Assembly (NCBI RefSeq): GCF_000760695.4
Contig: NZ_JHEG04000001.1
Span: forward strand, 5,462,204-5,526,203
Source of the DNA: Tolypothrix bouteillei VB521301
GTDB lineage: Bacteria; Cyanobacteriota; Cyanobacteriia; Cyanobacteriales; Nostocaceae
Reading direction: 5' to 3'
DNA length: 64,000 nt
The notes below the pieces were generated by a model. That model ran no database searches and was not told the origin of the DNA. It worked only from the letters and a program-made list of their open reading frames with translations. The translations under genes and the position numbers were made by a program. Shown piece by piece: positions 4,232 through 14,803 of this stretch; position 1 is the first letter of the stretch, and every line of letters starts with the position of its first letter.

Positions 4232-6475
4232 TTAACTTTCCGTGCGGAGTAAGGTAGTATATTTACCCCCTGAGAGCCACAACTCCTCATGCGTACCCCT
4301 CTGCACCACTTTCCCTTGCTCCAGTACAATAATTTCATCACAATCGCGAATCGTACTGAGTCGGTGAGCAATAATAATACAAGAGCAACCGCGTCGCCGC
4401 AAATTCCTATCAATAATCAATTCTGTTTGAGCATCCAACGCAGAAGTCGCTTCATCCATAACTAATACTGAGGGATTCCTGACTAAAGCACGGGCAATTT
4501 CTAATCGTTGGCGCTGTCCGCCACTCATGTTCATTCCCCCTTCAATCAACTTGGCATCATATCCCCCAGGCATAGAAACAATCAAATTATGAATGTCGGC
4601 GTCAGAGCAAGCCTGCACTAAGTCGGTTTGTGGTACTGTCGAATCCCATAAAGTAACATTTTCCCGAACTGTCCCAGCAAATAGAAAAATATCCTGTTCT
4701 ACCATTGCCAAAAAGTTTGCCAAAACAGTGCGAGGAATCTGAGTTCTGGGTACACCATCAAAGCAAATTTCCCCTTGCCAAGGTTTGTATAAACCGCAAA
4801 CTAGTTTCGCAATTGTAGACTTACCAGAACCACTCCCTCCTACTATTGCTACTCGTTGTCCCGGCTTGAGACACAGGTTAAAGTTCTCAATTAAGGGATT
4901 TTCCACTCGGCTGTAGCCAAAAGTGATATTTCGTAACTCAACGTAGCCCTGTAGTTGGACGGGAATTGAGAATTGGGTATGGGGCATAGGGTATGGAGCA
5001 TTGGCTATTTTCTCAAGCTCCATGCTCCTCTGTGCTTCTGCATCCACAGAATTCTGTAATACGTCATCTAAACGGTTGAAGTCAGCTTCTAAATCTTGCA
5101 GCGTACTACCGAAATTGACTAGACTGCCGATCGGTTCTAAGAAACTGGCTGTTAAACTCTGATACGCAACCAGCATCCCAATACTAAGGCTACCATTCAT
5201 TACCCGAAAACTGCCGATAATTAAAATAGCAGTTGTAGTGAGTGCTGTTAAAAGGGTGGGTAATATTGTGAGAATTTGAGTTTGTAAAGCTAGCTCCTGC
5301 TGGGCGTTGAGCGCTTTGGCATAATACCCAGCGAATTTAGCAAATGAATCAGACTCAAGCCCGTTCGCTTTGATTGTTTCTATAGTTTGAATGCCTGCGA
5401 TCGCCACTCCATTGACCTTACCAGATTCGATCGCCAGCTTCATATTGGCATCAACACGAGTCTGCGATAGAAACTGGAGGGCAAAAAAGTTGAGCGCGGC
5501 AAAACTAATAGCGATCGCACTCAGTACAAGGTCGTATTGAACCATAATTAAAAAGTAAAAGACCATCATCACTGTGTCGATAACGGTGGTTGCAAGGCGA
5601 CCTGAGAGTATCTCTGCTACTTTATCGTTAAGTAACATCCGACTGCTGATTTCACCTGCAAAGCGTTGGGCATAAAATCCAATTGGCAACCGGAGAATAT
5701 GCCAAAGAAACTGCCCTGACATCGTAACTGACAACTTCAGCATCAGCAAGCGCAGGTAGGTAAGCCGCAGTCTGGCAACTAGTGCTCGCAGTACACTAGT
5801 TATAGCCATTCCTAATACCAACGGTCGTATCCACTCTTGCCGATCGGTAATGAGAATTTCATCAACAAATATTTGAGTAAAACCGGGCACTGCTAACCGA
5901 GCAATTGTCAGTAATAGTCCTGCAAAAAAGCAGAACAAAATGGTATTGCGTGAGTGTTGCAAACGCGAGGCTAAAGCAGTAAAAATGTTACTTTTTTGAC
6001 CACTAGTTTGAAATTCCGGTCCTGGTTCCATCACCAAGACGACGCCTGTATAAGCACGATTAAACTCTTCTAGGGAAACTGTCCGGCGTCCTGTAGCGGG
6101 ATCGTTGAGGTAGACGCGGTTTTTGCCGAACCCCTCCACCACTAAAAAATGGTTGAAATTCCAAAAGACAATGTAGGGAGGACTCAAAGTGTTGAGGTTT
6201 TCCAACAACCTCTTCAAACCTTTGGCGTTTAAGCCATAGTTCCGGGCTGCTTTAACGATATTAAAAGCGCTGCTCCCATCTCGGGAAACACCGCACTCGC
6301 GCCGCAGTTCTGCTAACGGGACAATGCGCGAGTAATAGCCGAGAATAATTCCGAGGGCAGCAGCGCCGCATTCGGTTGCTTCAATTTGCAGCAGTGTGGG
6401 GGTTCTGACACGAGTCGTGTGTGCTGGCTGTAGAATACTTCTAATAAAAGTAAGTGGCTTAACCTTAAAAAACAT
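4232..6475 (-). CDS. C39 peptidase-containing ABC exporter (NHLM/NHLP bacteriocin type)
   Basis: This 747-residue protein fuses three parts. An N-terminal peptidase C39 domain (about 25-150) carries the catalytic Cys36 in EATECGAAAL, His109 in FNHFLVV and Asp125 in YLNDPATG. A six-helix ABC exporter membrane domain follows (about 175-450). The ATPase domain (about 510-747) has Walker A GGSGSGKST, signature MSGGQRQRLEIARAL and Walker B VLVMDEATSALD. Such proteins cut double-glycine leaders and export the core peptide. The two double-glycine peptides at 7413 and 8313 and the partner genes at 8725 and 10511 make this the peptidase subunit of an NHLM-type system. All catalytic residues are present. 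Confidence 0.92.
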   Translation of the reverse strand: MFFKVKPLTFIRSILQPAHTTRVRTPTLLQIEATECGAAALGIILGYYSRIVPLAELRRECGVSRDGSSAFNIVKAARNYGLNAKGLKRLLENLNTLSPPYIVFWNFNHFLVVEGFGKNRVYLNDPATGRRTVSLEEFNRAYTGVVLVMEPGPEFQTSGQKSNIFTALASRLQHSRNTILFCFFAGLLLTIARLAVPGFTQIFVDEILITDRQEWIRPLVLGMAITSVLRALVARLRLTYLRLLMLKLSVTMSGQFLWHILRLPIGFYAQRFAGEISSRMLLNDKVAEILSGRLATTVIDTVMMVFYFLIMVQYDLVLSAIAISFAALNFFALQFLSQTRVDANMKLAIESGKVNGVAIAGIQTIETIKANGLESDSFAKFAGYYAKALNAQQELALQTQILTILPTLLTALTTTAILIIGSFRVMNGSLSIGMLVAYQSLTASFLEPIGSLVNFGSTLQDLEADFNRLDDVLQNSVDAEAQRSMELEKIANAPYPMPHTQFSIPVQLQGYVELRNITFGYSRVENPLIENFNLCLKPGQRVAIVGGSGSGKSTIAKLVCGLYKPWQGEICFDGVPRTQIPRTVLANFLAMVEQDIFLFAGTVRENVTLWDSTVPQTDLVQACSDADIHNLIVSMPGGYDAKLIEGGMNMSGGQRQRLEIARALVRNPSVLVMDEATSALDAQTELIIDRNLRRRGCSCIIIAHRLSTIRDCDEIIVLEQGKVVQRGTHEELWLSGGKYTTLLRTES

Positions 6476-7412
6476 TAAATCTACCTTAACAAGTCAAAGA
6501 TTGCGAGGAGCAGCACTGGTATTCAGAATGCAAAAACCATATAGAGTTCTTGCTTCTTGTAACAAAATATGCTTTTTAAGTATTAGATAAACAAATATAT
6601 CTAACTATTTATATACCTCTAATGATGCAGAGATGAAAATAGATACCGAAAAAAACATCAAAAATTCCCAAATATCGGAATGACGTGGAGTATTTTGATA
6701 TGTTACTTCTCATTGATTTAAGTCTTTCTCAAACAAAGATACGTGAGTATCTTAATACTCTTTCCACAAAATAGTTATCACAGAGTGAGGAGTGATAAAA
6801 CTATAGATTTTCATATTTCTCCCCTTTCTAAGGAGAGGCTAAGAGGAGACTAAGGGGGCAAATCTAACCTATGTGTACAAGCAGTAGCTAAAAGGGGCGA
6901 AATACTCTTAACGCCATCTTTTTTACGGAGATTTGGAGGGAGTTAAAGTTATAAATACCTCAGTCACCACTGTTAAAATACCCTCTTAGCTACGTATACG
7001 TACAATATTTAATTATTTTTCTTACAAGCTTATAAGGAAAATTTTAAATATAAGATAAACAAATATACTATACTACAGACATACGTCTAATTGCATAGAA
7101 GCAGTAAAAAGACTAAAAAATTAATCAAACTTTTCAAAAAAAAAGAAAATACTTAAAGTAATTTTAGTATCTTAACTTCTCTTATCAATCTTATTCTATG
7201 TGAAATAAAAATACGAGAATATCTCAAAACCCTTGCTAAAAGCCAATTACGAGAGATGAAGAATTGGTAAATTGCTTGATAATTTTTTTTTATATGGATG
7301 ATTGCTAGCTTATTTGCAACATCGAACACGTGTATCTAAAGATATATATACAAAAATTTGTAAACCTTTTATAAAAATAAGTGTAATCACTCAATAGAAA
7401 GAGAAAAGCGAA
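6476..7412. other. AT-rich spacer upstream of the first precursor peptide
   Basis: This 937-base stretch separates the ABC exporter (minus) from the peptide gene (plus) and should hold divergent promoters. It is strongly AT-rich with many short stop-filled frames. I found no further double-glycine peptide in it. AAAGAGAAAAG just before 7413 may be the ribosome site of the peptide. Confidence 0.4.
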
Positions 7413-7625
7413 ATGATTAATAATGAAGCTGTAACCAAAGTTACTCAAGAAGTAAAGGAATGGGAAGGAGAACTGGATGATGCTGATTTAGCAGCTATAT
7501 CTGGTGGTGGACCTGTAGGACAACTCGTTGGGGGCGTAGTACAAGTTGTCGGTGGTACAGTAGGGGTTGTAGGGGGAGCAGTAGCGGCTGCAGGCGGGTA
7601 TATTGCTGAAAATCTTCCTCTGTAG
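7413..7625 (+). CDS. Double-glycine leader precursor peptide with glycine-zipper core
   Basis: This 70-residue peptide has an acidic leader ending in ELDDADLAAISGG (residues 20-32), the kind of site cut by C39 peptidases. The predicted core (33-70) has no cysteine and few polar residues. It contains GG pairs at 40-41, 47-48, 54-55 and 61-62, exactly seven residues apart, in VVGGTVG-like units. That is the spacing of a glycine zipper, suggesting a membrane-active helix. The leader ending is nearly the same as in the peptide at 8313. Its substrate relationship to the exporter at 4232 is inferred from leader and location. No modification enzyme is nearby. Confidence 0.8.
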   Translation: MINNEAVTKVTQEVKEWEGELDDADLAAISGGGPVGQLVGGVVQVVGGTVGVVGGAVAAAGGYIAENLPL

Positions 7626-8312
7626 AGGTATTGCTAGGCAATGTAGGTTTTCAAGTTACAGGTTTCTGCGAACAGGTGAATAAACTTGTGCTTTAATTGC
7701 ACTCACAATATCACTGAATTTTGGTGAATTTTTGTACCATCTCTGGTACTTTAGGCACTCCGATACTTAACTCTCTTCAATCGATTTGGAAAGAGGAAAA
7801 CGCTATAACCTCTTTTGAATAATAGACATAATCAAGCTTTAAGCGCTTTTATCCCCTTCATTATTATTTGACTCTCTTTGTTGTGAAAGTTCATAGTGGT
7901 AATAGTGGTAGATTATACTCCAACAAAAGAGATAAAAGAGAACTAAAAATACTTAGCTAAGTATCAAGGAATGCAATAAGTATTCACGCATTGCTTAATT
8001 TACCATAGCTTTTTGTGCAGCTAGCAAGTTGTACTCCTCCTGTTTTGCACCATTGCCGTACTGCAAAAATAAAAGCTCGGAAATCTGATTATTTGCTGGG
8101 GTGGGCAGCGCCCACCTTACCCCTCTACTTGAAGGCGCAAGATGTCAGCCTCCGACTAGCCGTGAAAATCGCCGCTAGTAATATATGAAAGACGCACATT
8201 TTTTTCATTTTCTGAAAGCCTTGCTATATAAGGGTTATAAAATGTGCATCTTAGGAGATACTGTGAGCATCGCTTCAAACAGTGAAAACACGAAAAATTA
8301 GGGTAGTGAAAA
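7626..8312. other. Spacer between the two precursor peptides
   Basis: No supported gene is seen. A 38-codon frame from ATG 8185 lacks a ribosome site and a leader motif. The stretch holds a short GTGGGCAGCGCCCAC inverted repeat at 8101-8115 and the 9-bp inverted repeat described separately. Confidence 0.4.
8194..8247 (+). promoter_or_regulatory. Inverted repeat upstream of the second precursor peptide
   Basis: GCACATTTT at 8194-8202 is matched perfectly by AAAATGTGC at 8239-8247, about 65 bases before the ATG at 8313. It could be an operator or an mRNA hairpin. A role is inference. Confidence 0.35.
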
Positions 8313-8615
8313 ATGGAAGCACATCAAACAAACGTACCTAAAACAGCAGTCAACATCTCAGTATCCAAAGAACAAAAATTAAACAATACAAATTTTGGGG
8401 ATTGGGAATTGTCAGACGAACTAGACGATGCTGATTTAGAAGCAATTCGTGGAGGGTTTTTGTTGAACGGACCTTTATTTAGTATTGGAGAGATTAATAT
8501 ACTGAGTGGAATTGGAAGCCAGAATGGAGGTTATAATACAACCTCTAATACCCAAACTGCGTATACTTCAGTCAACAATACAAATACTAATAATACAAAT
8601 ACAATCGGGAACTAA
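8313..8615 (+). CDS. Double-glycine leader precursor peptide with Asn/Thr-rich core
   Basis: This 100-residue peptide has a leader whose end, ELDDADLEAIRGG (residues 36-48), nearly repeats that of the 7413 peptide. The predicted core (49-100) starts with a hydrophobic FLLNGPLFSIGEINIL stretch and turns into a low-complexity tail of Asn, Thr and Ser. It has no cysteine, so it is not a lanthipeptide of the usual kind. It runs toward the HlyD-like gene. The two cores share no obvious similarity, while the leaders do, as expected for substrates of one exporter. Confidence 0.78.
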   Translation: MEAHQTNVPKTAVNISVSKEQKLNNTNFGDWELSDELDDADLEAIRGGFLLNGPLFSIGEINILSGIGSQNGGYNTTSNTQTAYTSVNNTNTNNTNTIGN

Positions 8616-8724
8616 ATAAGGTCAATTTTAGGTATAAGAAGGAACTGTTGCACGATCGCCTGCACTTGATATGACTAAAGTATCTGTGTGGATGGTTATA
8701 CGTGCAATAGCCTTAACCACCAAA

Positions 8725-10332
8725 TTAATAAATACCAGTCAAAGAGCGGAATAGAGGAATAACGTAGGAGATAGGTGCTACTTCTCCTATTTTGACCCGG
8801 ACCTCCGCAGTCGTACCGGATGAAATTTGTAATTCTGGACCTTTGGAAGAAGACCATTTGTAACCACTGATAGTGGAAGGATCTTTTTCCAGTTGGATCT
8901 GAACTTGCACGCGAGCTGCGTTACTATTGGCAAGGCTACGAGCTAAGTCTTCGTTACCAACTTGCGCTATAATATCCTGGGTCGTCACGGGAAAGGGAGA
9001 AACGTTCGTTACTACTCCAATAATTCCACCAAAGCGATCGCGCTTGACAACGCTGGGTGTTACTTGTACTGTCATGCCTGGTTTTATCTGTTTACCATCC
9101 TTATCAGCAAAGTAAACAAGACTTGACAGTTTTGTGTTAGGGTCTTCAACTTCAATCGTTGCAATCCGGGTACCGGAGCTAACAACTTGACCGGGGAGTG
9201 TACCAACTGACAAGACGCGACCATCAAATTTGCTAACAATTTGGCTCGACTGATTTAATTGCAGTTTTAACGAGGAAATTTTGCGTCGTACTTCCTGAAT
9301 TTGATTTAATTTGTTGACTGACTTTTCCAAATCTTGTTGAATGAGTTTGGTTTTTTGAGCTTCAATATCTTTAATTTTAGTTTTAATGTCGTCAAGTTTA
9401 TTCAGATTTTGCAGGTAATCCCGGTTTGCATTAGTTTTTTGAACTTGAATTTCTTGAATATTATTTTTGATATCATCAATTCTGCTCAGGTTTTGTAGGT
9501 ATTCCCGTTCGCTCGACGTTTTTTGAACATCAAGGTCTTTAAGTTGTGTTTGAATATCGTCAAGTTGCGTCTGTTGGTTCAACAAGTCCTGCTGGGCTTG
9601 AAGCACTACATCCTGGCTAATAACTTTTTCCTGAAATAAACTCCGACGAGCTTCAACTCGTTGTTGTAAAGTTTGCAATAATGAGCTAATTTTTTGCTTT
9701 CTCTCTAAAAGACTTTTACGTTTTTCTGCTATTGCGGTAAGAGTTTGGTTGTACAGTGTGGGTACGACTTGTTGTCTTAACAGGCTTTGCTCCAAGCTTT
9801 GTCGTTTTTGCTCTAACGCTTTTAAAGTTTCAGAGTGTAGCGTTGGTGCTACTGATTCTCGACGCAGGCTTTCTTCAAGGTCTTTTTGCTGCTGCTCCAA
9901 TGTTCTTTGTGACAAGGCGATCTGTTGTTTTTGCAGTCTCTCAGTGTCCCGGTTTTGCTCTTGCAACTGGATAAATTTCGCGTTTTCTTGCTGTAGTTGT
10001 TGCTTAATATTAGATTGATCTACGATCGCGAGTATTTGATTCTGCCTAACGACATCTCCTGGCTTGATGTTCAAGGCTAACAATTGACCGCCACCAAGTG
10101 ACTGAATTTGTACCACATGACGGGGTCGGATCAACACGCCAGAACCCGTAACTGTGAGTGGAATTCGCCCAACTATACTCCAAGTACCAGCAACGAAGAC
10201 CAAAAAGCCCATAGAAACTAAGGGTAGCCAAGCTTGGCGGCTTGTTAAGAGCATCAGTTTGTCAAGTTGCTCTGGAGAGTTTAAGCGTAAGAGCGCTTCT
10301 TCACGGAAGAGTTTTTTCGCGTTATTGGGCAT
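8725..10332 (-). CDS. HlyD-family adaptor, NHLM bacteriocin secretion protein type
   Basis: This 535-residue periplasmic adaptor has one membrane helix near residues 36-56, a short biotinyl-lipoyl-like strand region (GVLIRPRHVVQIQSLGGGQLLALNI), a very long coiled coil (about 110-350, rich in Gln, Leu and Lys, with internal repeats around QLDDIQTQLKDLDVQKTSSE) and a return lipoyl/beta-barrel part (about 365-535). In NHLM systems this component links the two ABC subunits to the cell envelope. It lies 178 bases downstream of the ABC gene at 10511 on the same strand and is probably in one transcript with it. Confidence 0.88.
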   Translation of the reverse strand: MPNNAKKLFREEALLRLNSPEQLDKLMLLTSRQAWLPLVSMGFLVFVAGTWSIVGRIPLTVTGSGVLIRPRHVVQIQSLGGGQLLALNIKPGDVVRQNQILAIVDQSNIKQQLQQENAKFIQLQEQNRDTERLQKQQIALSQRTLEQQQKDLEESLRRESVAPTLHSETLKALEQKRQSLEQSLLRQQVVPTLYNQTLTAIAEKRKSLLERKQKISSLLQTLQQRVEARRSLFQEKVISQDVVLQAQQDLLNQQTQLDDIQTQLKDLDVQKTSSEREYLQNLSRIDDIKNNIQEIQVQKTNANRDYLQNLNKLDDIKTKIKDIEAQKTKLIQQDLEKSVNKLNQIQEVRRKISSLKLQLNQSSQIVSKFDGRVLSVGTLPGQVVSSGTRIATIEVEDPNTKLSSLVYFADKDGKQIKPGMTVQVTPSVVKRDRFGGIIGVVTNVSPFPVTTQDIIAQVGNEDLARSLANSNAARVQVQIQLEKDPSTISGYKWSSSKGPELQISSGTTAEVRVKIGEVAPISYVIPLFRSLTGIY

Positions 10333-10510
10333 CTTGTATATTTTTCTTTTGAATTTACTCTACACTCAGACAGAATGCCGTGCCAGACATATACTGTTGC
10401 GTTTCCAGGCTTGACACTTATATCATATTATACTTTAAAATTGCTCGTTTTTGAACAAAAAAGTTTCGCCCAGTCCCCACCTAAAAATATTATGAGTTTG
10501 TCTCTTTTTA

Positions 10511-13252
10511 TTAATTTGATTCCATTTGTCGGGCTACTAGTTGAGCAAATAACCCCTCAGTATTAACCAGTTTCTCAAATGTACCTACTTGCACCACGCG
10601 ACCCGCTTCGATGGCATAAATTCGGTCAGCATTGCGAATTGTGCTCAGTCGATGAGCAATAACTATCCGAGTCGCATTCAACTTTTCTAAACTCTGAGAA
10701 ACGATCGCTTGGGTACGGTTATCCAAAGAACTGGTAGCCTCATCCATCAAGATAATTTTTGGCTGATTCACAAGCGCTCTTGCAATTAACAATCTCTGGC
10801 GTTGTCCCCCTGAAAGATTAGTACCGCCTTCACTGACAATTGTATGCAATCCCATAGGCATTTGTGCGATATCATCAGCCAAACCTGCCATTTGCGCCGC
10901 TTCTTGAGCTTGAGCTTGGGAAATTAATCCTCCGGCAGCGATATTCTGAAAAATTGAACCCGTGCCAATGCGACCATTCTGTAGCACTACTCCCAATTGC
11001 CTCCGCACCGCTTCAAGATTGAGTTCTGCTAAGTCAAAGCGATCGTAGAACACCGTTCCCGATTGTGGAGTTTCAAACCCCAACAACAACCTCAATATGG
11101 TTGATTTCCCACTGCCGGAAGGTCCCACTATCGCTACAAATTCCCCAGGTTCTGCATGGAGACTCACCCGGTCGAGAATCGGCAACCCATCGTCACGGTA
11201 GCGAAAGGTAACGTTGTCTAAAGCTACGCGACCCATCAAGTCGCCTGGGTTTGCCTTGGTAGGATCGTACTCCGGCTGTGCTTGCAAAATTGGTTTTGCC
11301 CTCTCCCACAAAGGCACAATTGCCAAAATATCAGTCAGTGTGTTGCTCAGGCTAGTTACACCTCCAATAAAAATCCCCAACGCAGCATTAAAAGCCAAAA
11401 ACTTACCAGCAGTCAGCCCGTCGCCTGTTGTCTGAGCCATCTGTATCGATGAAATCGCAAACCAATATAACAGCGCTGAAGTCACAAGCGGTAGAACCTC
11501 GTTAAACACAGAAACCCGATCTACAATTCGTTGGAAACTAGCCTTGAGCATCATTTGCTGGCTGTACTGCTCCGCCCAAGCAGCAAATGCGCGATCTTCC
11601 GCCATCGCCACCCGCAGCTTAGCTACCCCGTTAATGAGTTGTACTGTCAGTCCATTAATCTCGCCAATCAGTTGTTGCTGGCGGCGCAATTTGCGTATTA
11701 ATACCAAGCTAGCAACAGTAGTGACAACAGTTGTTAGAAGGGCTATACCTACACCCACTAGAGCGAGTTGCCAACTGTAAACAAACATCAGTACCAAGTT
11801 TAGTAGAGCAAACAGTGCGCTTAAAAGAGTGCGTTGCGTTCCTCCTGACAATTTCTGACGAATTTGGTTCACCGATAAAACGCGGTTTACCAAGTCACCA
11901 GAGGAATAGTTGCGAAAAAATGCCGGACTTAATCTCAGCAGTCGATCCCAAATTGCAGGCTGCAATGCGCTATCAGCAGCGTTTTCGATTCGCAGCGAAA
12001 TTATGCCTTGGGACATAGCAAATACTGTTCTTCCCATAAGAAGTGCAAACAACGCTAGCCCTATTTGCCCTAACAAGCCGCGATCGCTATCTGGAATGGC
12101 ATTATCGAGCAACAGCGCTGTTGCCTGTGGCACAACCATTCCTAGCGCCGAGGCAACAACCCCAGTTGCCAAAACTAAAATTATGTCTTTTTGATAACCC
12201 TTGACGCCAAACTGAAACAATTGTATTGCATTGTTGACGACGTTGGGTAATGGTCGGTAAAATTGGTGAGCCTGTGTTGCAAGTGTTGCCGCTACTCTTT
12301 GATTTACAACAGTGCGAGTCTGCGTTGTGGGGTCAAACAAAATATAACGGTTGCCCGCTGGTAACAAAGCTACTGGAAGGTTTTCTTCTTGGGTGTAAGC
12401 TAATAACGGACCATGCTCGTGAAGCCACCAGTTATCCTCAAGCACTACGCAACGGGTGCGAATTTGGGAGGAGCGTGCTAGAGCTTCTATCGGCTCTTGA
12501 ACTCGACTGAGATCCTCTGACTGCGTCGGCGGACTAATCGTTATACCCATTGCTCGTGCAACTGCTCCCGCTGCTACCAGCAACGGCGTTCCTGGCTGAT
12601 GAAAAAATGCAGTTTCTTGCTGCGGTTGCACTACAGCAGCTAACTTAGAAAGTGCAGAGCTAACTACCTGATGATTGAGTTGCTCTCGTTCCATAAAAGA
12701 GCGGCTCGCTGCTTCTGTTTCCTTTATTAACAAATTCAAAGAATGGAAGAAATCAGTATGTAAATCAGCTAGAATATTTGGCAGTTTGGTTGCTAATTCT
12801 TGCTCGGTCAATAATTTGTAGCGCTCTTTATTTGTCGTTCTATTGGCGTTAGTGAATATGCGATCGAGATGATTTACCCAATTTTCTACCAAGGCTATTG
12901 TACTAGCTTTTCCTAAAGCTATTTGTGCTGCTAAATCCGTTATTGTAATTTGAAATAATTCTGTTGGCTCAATTGCTACCGCTAAAAAGGATTTTGGATT
13001 ATCGATTGCTGCACCAAACAACGCTTCACCAGATCTTGTATTGAACAGATAGCGATGATGTTTGGCAAAATCTTGCCCTACCTCTACGCGCAAAGCGGCT
13101 TGTCTCGCTCGCTCGCTTAAATCATCCTCATCTCTGACTTCTGTTACAAACAATGACATGGCACCAGATTTAATAATCCATACCTTTTCTGGGTCATTCA
13201 GCAGTAATGATTCATTTCCTTGGAGGCGATACAAGACTTCCATATTACGCAA
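10511..13252 (-). CDS. NHLM/NHLP-type ABC transporter ATP-binding/permease subunit without peptidase
   Basis: This 913-residue protein has a long soluble N-terminal part (about 1-360) that lacks the C39 catalytic residues. An ABC exporter membrane domain follows (about 365-640), then an ATPase domain with Walker A GPSGSGKST, signature LSGGQRQRLLIARAL and Walker B IILMDEATSSLD. Size and arrangement fit the second, peptidase-free ABC subunit of NHLM systems, which pairs with the C39-containing subunit at 4232. It is first in a minus-strand pair with the HlyD-like gene. Confidence 0.9.
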   Translation of the reverse strand: MRNMEVLYRLQGNESLLLNDPEKVWIIKSGAMSLFVTEVRDEDDLSERARQAALRVEVGQDFAKHHRYLFNTRSGEALFGAAIDNPKSFLAVAIEPTELFQITITDLAAQIALGKASTIALVENWVNHLDRIFTNANRTTNKERYKLLTEQELATKLPNILADLHTDFFHSLNLLIKETEAASRSFMEREQLNHQVVSSALSKLAAVVQPQQETAFFHQPGTPLLVAAGAVARAMGITISPPTQSEDLSRVQEPIEALARSSQIRTRCVVLEDNWWLHEHGPLLAYTQEENLPVALLPAGNRYILFDPTTQTRTVVNQRVAATLATQAHQFYRPLPNVVNNAIQLFQFGVKGYQKDIILVLATGVVASALGMVVPQATALLLDNAIPDSDRGLLGQIGLALFALLMGRTVFAMSQGIISLRIENAADSALQPAIWDRLLRLSPAFFRNYSSGDLVNRVLSVNQIRQKLSGGTQRTLLSALFALLNLVLMFVYSWQLALVGVGIALLTTVVTTVASLVLIRKLRRQQQLIGEINGLTVQLINGVAKLRVAMAEDRAFAAWAEQYSQQMMLKASFQRIVDRVSVFNEVLPLVTSALLYWFAISSIQMAQTTGDGLTAGKFLAFNAALGIFIGGVTSLSNTLTDILAIVPLWERAKPILQAQPEYDPTKANPGDLMGRVALDNVTFRYRDDGLPILDRVSLHAEPGEFVAIVGPSGSGKSTILRLLLGFETPQSGTVFYDRFDLAELNLEAVRRQLGVVLQNGRIGTGSIFQNIAAGGLISQAQAQEAAQMAGLADDIAQMPMGLHTIVSEGGTNLSGGQRQRLLIARALVNQPKIILMDEATSSLDNRTQAIVSQSLEKLNATRIVIAHRLSTIRNADRIYAIEAGRVVQVGTFEKLVNTEGLFAQLVARQMESN

Positions 13253-13548
13253 TACACAACAGTCAATGCCAACGATTTTAATGAATCGCTACTGCCTTTG
13301 GGAGTGTGGCAGTTTGTAAACGCTTAGCGATCGTTTGTTTTTTTATACTTATATACTTAACAGTATTATTCCGTAGTTTTGTTTCAAAGTCAAAAAATAA
13401 TTATACTTCATACGAAAGTTTCTATTAACTGGGTGAGTATTTGTGCTGAACTTAACTCAAGCTAATTTCATAACCAGCTAGCAGCTTGCTTCCCCCGTGT
13501 AAGACTTACTAGCAAATTTTCCCACATGGTGAAAAACCTTTACTGCCA
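13253..13548. other. Spacer upstream of the ABC gene
   Basis: This AT-rich stretch, without a supported gene, probably holds the promoter for the minus-strand ABC/HlyD pair. Nothing else is clear. Confidence 0.35.
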
Positions 13549-13594
13549 GTGAATTTACTTAGTCTGAATGTATGTTACAGGATGGCGATCGCAT
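13549..13594 (+). pseudogene. Fragmentary second copy of the DUF4178 gene
   Basis: These 46 bases match 1630-1675 inside the DUF4178 gene with only three differences, all G/A transitions, in the same orientation. Similarity fades upstream, and downstream the frame ends at TAA. It is a remnant of a duplication; the two copies flank the peptide export island. Confidence 0.7.
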
Positions 13595-13636
13595 AATAGT
13601 AAAATGTAGTTAAAAGTCATTGGAAAAGTTGAAACA

Positions 13637-13912
13637 ATGCAGCGTTTTTCTGTTACAGAGATCCAAAATACTCATACTGAGGTTTTAAACCAAGCCTCTG
13701 TCGAGCCTGTTTTGCTGACAGAGGAATCACAACCTAACTATGTCATTATGTCAATTGAAAACTACGAGCAATTGATGAATCGACTAACTCGATTGGAAGA
13801 TTCGATCGTAGGTCAACAAGCAGAAGCTGCACTCTCCAAGTCGCGGATGGTTGGTACAGAAACTTTTACAGCAGAACTCAAGCGGTTGGTAACGCTTGAT
13901 GATAACAGCTGA
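13637..13912 (+). CDS. Phd/YefM-family antitoxin
   Basis: This 91-residue protein has the Phd/YefM N-terminal pattern: FSVTEIQN, then VEPVLLTEESQPNYVIMSIENYEQLM, followed by a helical C-terminal tail expected to wrap the toxin. Antitoxins of this family bind DNA with the N-terminal half and repress their own operon. Four bases after its stop an ATG opens the ruined toxin frame at 13917, which is the normal coupled layout. The antitoxin itself looks intact. Confidence 0.85.
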   Translation: MQRFSVTEIQNTHTEVLNQASVEPVLLTEESQPNYVIMSIENYEQLMNRLTRLEDSIVGQQAEAALSKSRMVGTETFTAELKRLVTLDDNS

Positions 13913-13916
13913 TTGT

Positions 13917-14056
13917 ATGGCAAAACTTGATGGTCTTGAGACGGTTCTTGATTTTCTCAAAGGTTACAGCCTAATGCGGATTTGGTTGAGGTAATTTTGG
14001 TGGGAAAGCGTAATGATGACGAAGTATATAAGCAAATGAAGCGTTTACTAGTCTGA
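13917..14056 (+). pseudogene. Remnant of a RelE/ParE-like toxin
   Basis: The frame from ATG 13917 stops after 25 codons. In a shifted frame (13952-14056) lies a toxin-like C-terminus with VEVILVGKRNDDEVYKQM and a stop. Toxins of this family have about 90-100 residues; here only about 46 codons in two frames remain, so a deletion and a frameshift are needed. It is probably non-functional. Confidence 0.5.
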
Positions 14057-14088
14057 GAGAATAACACTTAAGTTAGCGGTAAGAGGTA

Positions 14089-14328
14089 ATGCCAAAGAAA
14101 ATCAGAGAACTGAAGGCAATGGTAGCAAAAGTAGGATATGTTCTTCAACCAGGTCGAGGGAAAGGCAGTCATAGTTATTAGAAACATCCTTTGCTACCTG
14201 AAGAACCGCTAACTATCCCAGGAAAAGATGGAGATGATTCTCCGTTATATTTAGAAAGAAATATTCAACGAGTGCTGAAAAAGTTAGAAGAACTAGAAAA
14301 ACTGGAAAACAAGGAAGGCGAAGAATGA
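14089..14328 (+). pseudogene. hicA: HicA mRNA interferase gene interrupted by an in-frame amber stop
   Basis: The 80-codon frame reads as a HicA toxin with residues such as VGYVLQPGRGKGSHSY, including the catalytic-type His28, but codon 31 is TAG (14179-14181) where the family normally has a tryptophan or similar residue. After it the family pattern resumes (KHPLLPEEPLTIPG, then DDSPLYLERNIQRVLKKL). A single base change would restore it. The end overlaps hicB by the ATGA arrangement. HicA cleaves mRNA; this copy should give only a 30-residue fragment unless the stop is read through or is a sequencing error. Confidence 0.75.
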
Positions 14329-14555
14329 GCTACCACTACAGCATGGTGATTCAATGGTCTCAAGAAGATCGACTTTTCTTAGTTCACTTGCCTGAGTTTC
14401 CCTGGCAGCAGTTTCATACACATGGTAGAACTTATGAAGAAGCAGCCAAAAATGGTCAGGAAGTGATTGAGGCTTTCGTTGAGATGCTGACTGAAGAAGA
14501 TAAACCACTACCAGAACCTAGAATGCTTCCCACAAAGCCGTTGTTGATTGCTTAA
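14325..14555 (+). CDS. hicB: HicB-family antitoxin
   Basis: This 76-residue protein has the HicB fold pattern: YSMVIQWSQEDRLFLVHLPEFP (strands 1-2), then HTHGRTYEEAAKNGQEVIEAFVEMLTEEDKPLPEP, the typical helix and proline-rich end. It lacks a C-terminal DNA-binding domain, so it is the short form. Its start overlaps the end of the broken hicA, so it seems to be an antitoxin that outlived its toxin. Confidence 0.88.
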   Translation: MSYHYSMVIQWSQEDRLFLVHLPEFPWQQFHTHGRTYEEAAKNGQEVIEAFVEMLTEEDKPLPEPRMLPTKPLLIA

Positions 14556-14752
14556 GGTTCCACTCATAGCCAAATCACGCCAAAGAACGGGCGAGGACAC
14601 CCATCCCACAAGATGGATAATTGATTTCTTGGAAATCCCCTAAATCGGTTTCATGCTTGCGACATTACCAACCAATGTAACCGTTTCACCAATTATCGAC
14701 TACTCGCATTTACTTGATAGCTCAAATGATAATCTGATGATAATAATTAAAC

Positions 14753-14781
14753 CTCGTTCCCAAGCTCTGCTTGAGAACGAG
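14753..14781. terminator. REP-like hairpin between convergent genes
   Basis: CTCGTTCCCAAG and CTTGAGAACGAG form a 12-bp stem with one mismatch around CTCTG. It lies between hicB (plus) and the E2 gene (minus), so it may serve both as a terminator. Similar CTCGTTCCCA hairpins are common dispersed repeats in cyanobacteria. Confidence 0.55.
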
Positions 14782-14803
14782 CAGTCAAGAGAAACTAGAG
14801 TTT

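Follow-up and report, generated by a model that had tools for sequence, protein, structure and literature searches.

A LanM-free NHLM-type peptide export island in a filamentous cyanobacterium and chaplin-domain precursors at related exporter loci

The NHLM trio of export genes and its link to precursors with GG leaders were described by Haft et al. in 2010 (PMC2887384), and trios without LanM were set apart as group V, with 12 clusters in nine cyanobacterial genomes, by Wang et al. in 2011 (PMC3140520); an NHLM architecture free of LanM is thus not new. Small GG proteins are also secreted by Synechococcus elongatus, in which export of the EbfG proteins depends on a C39 protein (PMC4997328) and EbfG1-3 form amyloid (PMC9981879). 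Among the actinobacteria, chaplins and rodlins are coat proteins of Streptomyces (PMC4255298; PMC5314377); a 2013 survey of actinobacterial genomes describes chaplin-like proteins in that group (PMC4255298), and RdlB forms amyloid (PMC5314377).

The island considered here lies in a 64-kb stretch of DNA, hereafter the window, within a genome of 9,949,079 bases (9.95 Mb, two contigs) from a filamentous cyanobacterium; the closest named relatives encountered belong to Scytonema, Tolypothrix and Brasilonema. Three exporter genes occupy the minus strand: a C39-ABC gene of the NHLM ABC1 type (4232-6475), with peptidase, permease and ATPase regions (TIGR03796, 1138 bits against a cut-off of 853.3); a gene for an HlyD-like adaptor (8725-10332; TIGR03794, 353.9 against 156.2); and an NHLM ABC2 gene lacking the peptidase domain (10511-13252; TIGR03797, 987.6 against 709.4). 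The C39-ABC protein is predicted from its sequence to cut GG leaders and export the cores. It contains a Peptidase_C39 domain (E 7e-35) and matches the solved bacteriocin transporter 4ry2 over its full length, and its residues C36, H109 and D125, which we take to be the catalytic Cys, His and Asp of the C39 family, are all present. Walker A and signature motifs are intact in the ATPases of both this protein and ABC2. The island drawn in a first-pass annotation of this DNA is therefore real and its coordinates are correct, including the claim that the three exporter parts are complete. Three C39-ABC proteins in the whole genome exceed the TIGR03796 cut-off. An open reading frame for a PhdYefM-type antitoxin adjoins the island (13637-13912, plus strand).

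By its three genes, each above the curated cut-off, the island agrees with the NHLM/NHLP systems, but it differs from them in that no modification gene is linked and neither precursor peptide matches the NHLP or Nif11 leader models (TIGR03793, TIGR03798) at an E value of up to 1. The two peptides are substrates of an NHLM-type exporter by position and are not members of the NHLP or N11P families. Likened by description, a close counterpart is group V as defined in PMC3140520, which shares a short-type C39 transporter, an HlyD protein, an extra ABC protein, several small GG precursors and the absence of LanM; the window, with its trio and no LanM, falls within that definition. A tblastn search of the window with one reference sequence did not recover the CAP_ED-only protein that is mentioned for group V. 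The EbfG1-4/PteB system, again compared by description (PMC4997328; PMC9981879), has in common with the island small GG-leader proteins, C39-dependent secretion and no modification in the text available, and differs in that PteB and EbfE, not an NHLM trio, are named there.

Both precursor genes lie on the plus strand between the C39-ABC and HlyD genes. Precursor 1 (7413-7625) has 70 residues, a leader ending in ELDDADLAAISGG and a predicted core of 38 residues; precursor 2 (8313-8615) has 100 residues, a leader ending in ELDDADLEAIRGG and a predicted core of 52. Neither core contains cysteine. A degenerate DNA pattern for E-L-D-D-A-[DE]-L matched the genome exactly twice, at these two genes, and the reversed-pattern control gave no match in the 9,949,079 bases, so that the matching ELDDA-type leaders and Cys-free cores noted earlier are borne out and the pattern occurs nowhere else in the genome. 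The cores are dissimilar in composition: that of peptide 1 is hydrophobic and Gly/Val-rich, with a GRAVY of +1.14 and GxxxG motifs, and that of peptide 2 is Asn/Thr/Gly-rich, with a GRAVY of -0.39; each is slightly acidic (net charge -1). The first-pass annotation called both potentially membrane-active, a description that suits peptide 1 and does not suit peptide 2. Neither precursor received a confident structure from AlphaFold2 (mean pLDDT 45.3 for peptide 1 and 41.9 for peptide 2, values too low to support a fold search); the model of peptide 1 has two low-confidence strands in its core. Peptide 2 evolves fast, with a dN/dS of 0.60-2.22 over six pairs from which purifying selection is not clear, and its coding status rests on its leader, its homologues and in-frame conservation. 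A scan of positions 6400-8800 gave no usable signal, with seven promoter-like sites where 8.0 were expected and no terminator-like site.

A search by tblastn with the LanM of this genome and one of its YcaO proteins found no match in the 64-kb window, and relatives of either were likewise absent from all 15 loci of the same exporter subclade, the window's own included, most of which were covered for about 10 kb on each side and some only to a contig end; LanM was recovered by the same procedure at two positive-control loci (L036 and L088). The claim that the island has no modification enzyme therefore holds for the window and, for LanM and YcaO, extends to its relatives, and by the usual mark of a lanthipeptide or TOMM cluster, a linked LanM or YcaO, none of these loci is one. 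One radical SAM gene, carrying a DUF3641 domain, was noticed among the clade loci, at L047. Elsewhere in the genome, a scan for maturases returned one LanM, two YcaO and 37 radical SAM matches, all outside the island. The only LanM adjoins another NHLM trio together with 13 precursors in tandem (L036:778-4315, minus strand), most of them nearly identical, with two Cys per core and a leader of a different type, ELSDEALEEVAGG. The third NHLM trio of the genome has no such precursor within the 19 kb examined. Stand-alone YcaO proteins of about 750 residues are encoded on the minus strand at L065:3939-6191 and L066:3791-6031, and near the latter a 187-residue open reading frame (L066:7446-8009, minus strand) starts with a GG-leader-like stretch.

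Of the 217 family genomes, 15 (the window's own among them) encode an HlyD relative that is 74-100% identical to the window's protein, and the next best match falls to 47%. A maximum-likelihood tree of 24 C39 proteins places the window's protein in a clade of 13 with support of 100/99. Nine of the relatives are named: Iningainema tapete, Tolypothrix campylonemoides, Scytonema tolypothrichoides, Scytonema sp. NIES-4073, Scytonema sp. RU_4_4, Brasilonema bromeliae, B. angustatum, B. sp. UFV-L1 and B. sp. CT11. At the locus of T. campylonemoides VB511288 (L041, 6520-8800, plus strand) the C39 gene can be read only in two open stretches that overlap, and this copy may be broken or misassembled. 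In a rule-based scan for GG leaders, 10 of the 15 loci yielded a total of 19 precursors; 16 have Cys-free cores and the remaining three are chaplins. The scan found no precursor at G023, G024, G179, G181 and G182, and when these five were searched by tblastn with known precursors (E<=0.01), G023 yielded only low-complexity Gly/Ser/Val-rich stretches and the other four nothing.

Matches to the window's own peptides at E<=0.01, several of them weak, were found in nine of the 217 genomes for peptide 1 and in eight for peptide 2, the window's genome being counted in each case. Four relatives of peptide 2 (P0002-P0005) are 61-76% identical to it. The leader of peptide 1 is common to P0007 and P0008, and in P0008 it is joined to a core of the peptide 2 type. 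Some relatives of peptide 2 (at L038, L040 and L042) are distant from any exporter gene, and because of this a single exporter may serve scattered precursors. Beside the lone relative at L038 (9774-10076) a second copy of the leader pattern follows some 220 bases downstream, at about 10100-10250, perhaps as a second or decayed precursor. Peptide 2 had no match among plasmids, and its candidacy as a rodlin relative was rejected when hhalign aligned the leader only.

At three of the 15 clade loci (G020, G021 and G025) a chaplin behind a GG leader, either EELDDADLLTVIAG or EELDDDDLLTVIGG, is encoded between the HlyD and C39 genes. The ChpA-C domain (PF03777) exceeds the Pfam cut-off in each (E 5.6e-29, 1.2e-23 and 1.3e-27), the three loci fall within the window's C39 clade in the tree of 24, and the genes, in Brasilonema-type genomes, lie on the minus strand inside the exporter cluster (L060:4102-4413, L053:5123-5404 and L058:15261-15560). 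No ChpA-C match was found in the window's peptides or anywhere in its genome. Across the family the domain exceeds the cut-off in seven of the 217 genomes (eight at E<=0.01), with a GG leader in six of the seven and a Sec-like signal instead in the seventh, G130, where the protein is encoded on the plus strand at about 9760-10130 of L100 and has no MauE-like neighbor. Among the best 120 of 7505 homologues of the G020 protein (E<=1e-5), 14 had a GG leader, 98 were called Sec-like by a crude rule and eight had neither; the named GG-leader proteins among these best 120 come from Brasilonema, Nostoc and Tolypothrix. The cores are up to 98% identical to chaplins of Streptomyces in alignments that cover about 41-52% of the query. 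In several of the cyanobacterial proteins the shared sequence (DAGAQGAA...) starts directly after GG, at the place where the signal region ends in Streptomyces, presumably the point of cleavage there. A comparison of the chaplin with PDB sequences gave no meaningful match (three rows, E 0.49 to 0.71).

Two Nostoc-type genomes (G124 and G136) have, beside the chaplin, another gene with a GG leader, which encodes a rodlin (NF041022, 109.6 and 129.8 bits against a cut-off of 75). These rodlin genes (L097:9345-9698 and L098:9386-9742, minus strand) adjoin both the GG-leader chaplin and a gene for a MauE/thioredoxin-like protein, and no exporter genes were found near them in the stretch examined. 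Rodlins encoded by 11 Streptomyces plasmids share 74-85% identity with their cores, and the matches start between one and three residues past GG. The second peptide beside the chaplin in G154 is a different, Cys-bearing one. The MauE/thioredoxin-like protein, of 307-321 residues with a CxxC motif, adjoins the chaplin in six of the seven chaplin genomes, G130 being the exception, and is a candidate disulfide helper. In the exporter clade it is found at four of the 15 loci, namely the three with a Cys-bearing chaplin and G022, where no chaplin was found, and it is absent from the window. The first-pass annotation had held that a conserved maturase linked to the cluster in relatives would tell against its reading, and in a narrow sense the MauE/thioredoxin-like protein is a candidate for one, although not at the window itself.

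The chaplin and rodlin genes have a cyanobacterial-like G+C content (34-40%, in surroundings of 41-45%); since they also have cyanobacterial neighbor genes and lie on contigs of different assemblies, contamination is unlikely. The scatter of chaplins over seven of the 217 family genomes, and not a tree, is what suggests the direction of transfer. NCBI names such as 'chaplin [Nostoc sp.]' and 'chaplin [Brasilonema bromeliae]' show that annotation already labels such proteins. Among the open-licence papers listed for these subjects, we found no report of cyanobacterial chaplins or rodlins and no earlier description of their GG leaders and link to an exporter.

We read the island as an NHLM-type, group V-like system that exports short, unmodified ribosomal peptides to an extracellular role, most probably that of a matrix or surface material, and put the probability of this reading at about 0.55. 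The leader of each precursor would be removed behind GG by the C39 transporter, and the core would leave the cell through C39-ABC, HlyD and ABC2 acting together; no linked enzyme would tailor it covalently, and the exported cores would self-associate outside the cell, as C39-exported EbfG does and as may be expected of the chaplins of the clade. A surface or matrix role is preferred because chaplins are the apparent cargo of the same exporter clade and because EbfG offers a parallel; for the window's own peptides this role is perhaps to be expected, by analogy with their relatives and with the published EbfG amyloids. The intact trio, the two leaders unmatched elsewhere in the genome, the placement of LanM with other precursors, the lack of LanM and YcaO relatives at all 15 loci, the Cys-free cores of 16 of the 19 clade precursors and the net charge of -1 of both window cores speak for the reading as a whole. 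The likeness to the Streptomyces coat is that the predicted exported core is a chaplin in three clade relatives and a rodlin in the two Nostoc-type genomes; the differences are the Sec-type signal used there, to judge from the 98 Sec-like homologues called by the crude rule among the best 120 of 7505, and the window's own cores, which are neither chaplin nor rodlin. Several results speak against a surface role: the window's genome has no chaplin match, peptide 2 aligns to rodlins in its leader only, neither peptide has a confident fold, relatives of peptide 2 at three loci sit away from exporters, no precursor was detected at five of the 15 loci, and one relative of peptide 1 passes a bacteriocin model. 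The fast evolution of peptide 2 also counts against it and would be expected of a bacteriocin too. Peptides 1 and 2 could indeed be unmodified class II-like bacteriocins, the first acting on membranes and the second its partner or a bacteriocin in its own right. The island possesses the class II trait of GG leaders with a C39 transporter, the core of peptide 1 is hydrophobic with GxxxG motifs, and P0007 exceeds the class IIb model TIGR03949, if narrowly (22.2 bits against a cut-off of 21.5). We nevertheless regard this as rather unlikely: peptides 1 and 2 themselves fall below every curated bacteriocin cut-off, both cores are slightly acidic, relatives of peptide 2 occur at L038, L040 and L042 with no peptide 1 neighbor detected, and there is no convincing immunity gene, since the four gaps around the island genes (6476-7412, 7626-8312, 8616-8724 and 13253-14803) contain one doubtful hydrophobic frame of 39 codons, immunity proteins being hard to recognize.

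Modification by an enzyme encoded elsewhere, be it a lone YcaO, a radical SAM protein or a distant LanM, is improbable. The genome does encode candidates, Ser and Thr are abundant in core 2, and a LanM acting on scattered precursors has been discussed for Prochlorococcus MIT9313 (PMC3140520). The distant LanM was rejected as a main reading, and it is an unlikely maturase for peptides 1 and 2 because it sits with 13 Cys-bearing precursors of its own that have another leader; neither core has a Cys from which a lanthionine or thiazole could be formed, and relatives of LanM and YcaO are missing from all 15 clade loci. Of the distant enzyme that the first-pass annotation offered as an alternative, the two YcaO and 37 radical SAM proteins thus remain as candidates, and its interpretation as a whole is partly supported. 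Least probable of all, to our minds, is that the peptides are extracellular signals, neither structural nor antimicrobial. Some signals are likewise small, exported by C39 proteins and fast evolving, but at 38 and 52 residues the cores would be long signals, and no receptor or two-component gene was noticed in the island.

The preferred reading, export of unmodified peptides to the matrix or surface, has a more far-reaching form that we put forward tentatively and consider possible but doubtful. The exporter clade may be a cyanobacterial surface-coat exporter that has acquired rodlet-layer proteins from actinobacteria, their Sec signal having been swapped for a GG leader at the start of the mature protein; the linked MauE/thioredoxin-like protein would then form the chaplin disulfide, and the window's peptides would be home-grown coat substrates. 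If so, terrestrial filamentous cyanobacteria and streptomycetes would share an aerial-growth toolkit by way of two unrelated export routes. The chaplin cargo of the clade makes it a more interesting variant than was supposed at first and is a hint that it may help to build the cell surface and not only to make antibiotics. By near default, GG-leader peptides of cyanobacteria are classed as bacteriocins or as modified natural products; chaplin and rodlin cores that follow such leaders, three of them inside an exporter cluster, would show that these exporters also serve the cell surface, and the purpose of hundreds of unassigned cyanobacterial GG peptides would become testable by established amyloid and surface-hydrophobicity assays. 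They would also provide a clear example from nature of a secreted protein that switched its export route by leader exchange after transfer between phyla.

A further class of Cys-free GG peptides, with the motif GNGG[RT]PT[ST]G in the core, is followed on the same strand by a gene for an NCS2-type permease at five of five loci (L043, L044, L046, L047 and L048). The permeases are 83-100% identical to the copy at L048, which belongs to PF00860.
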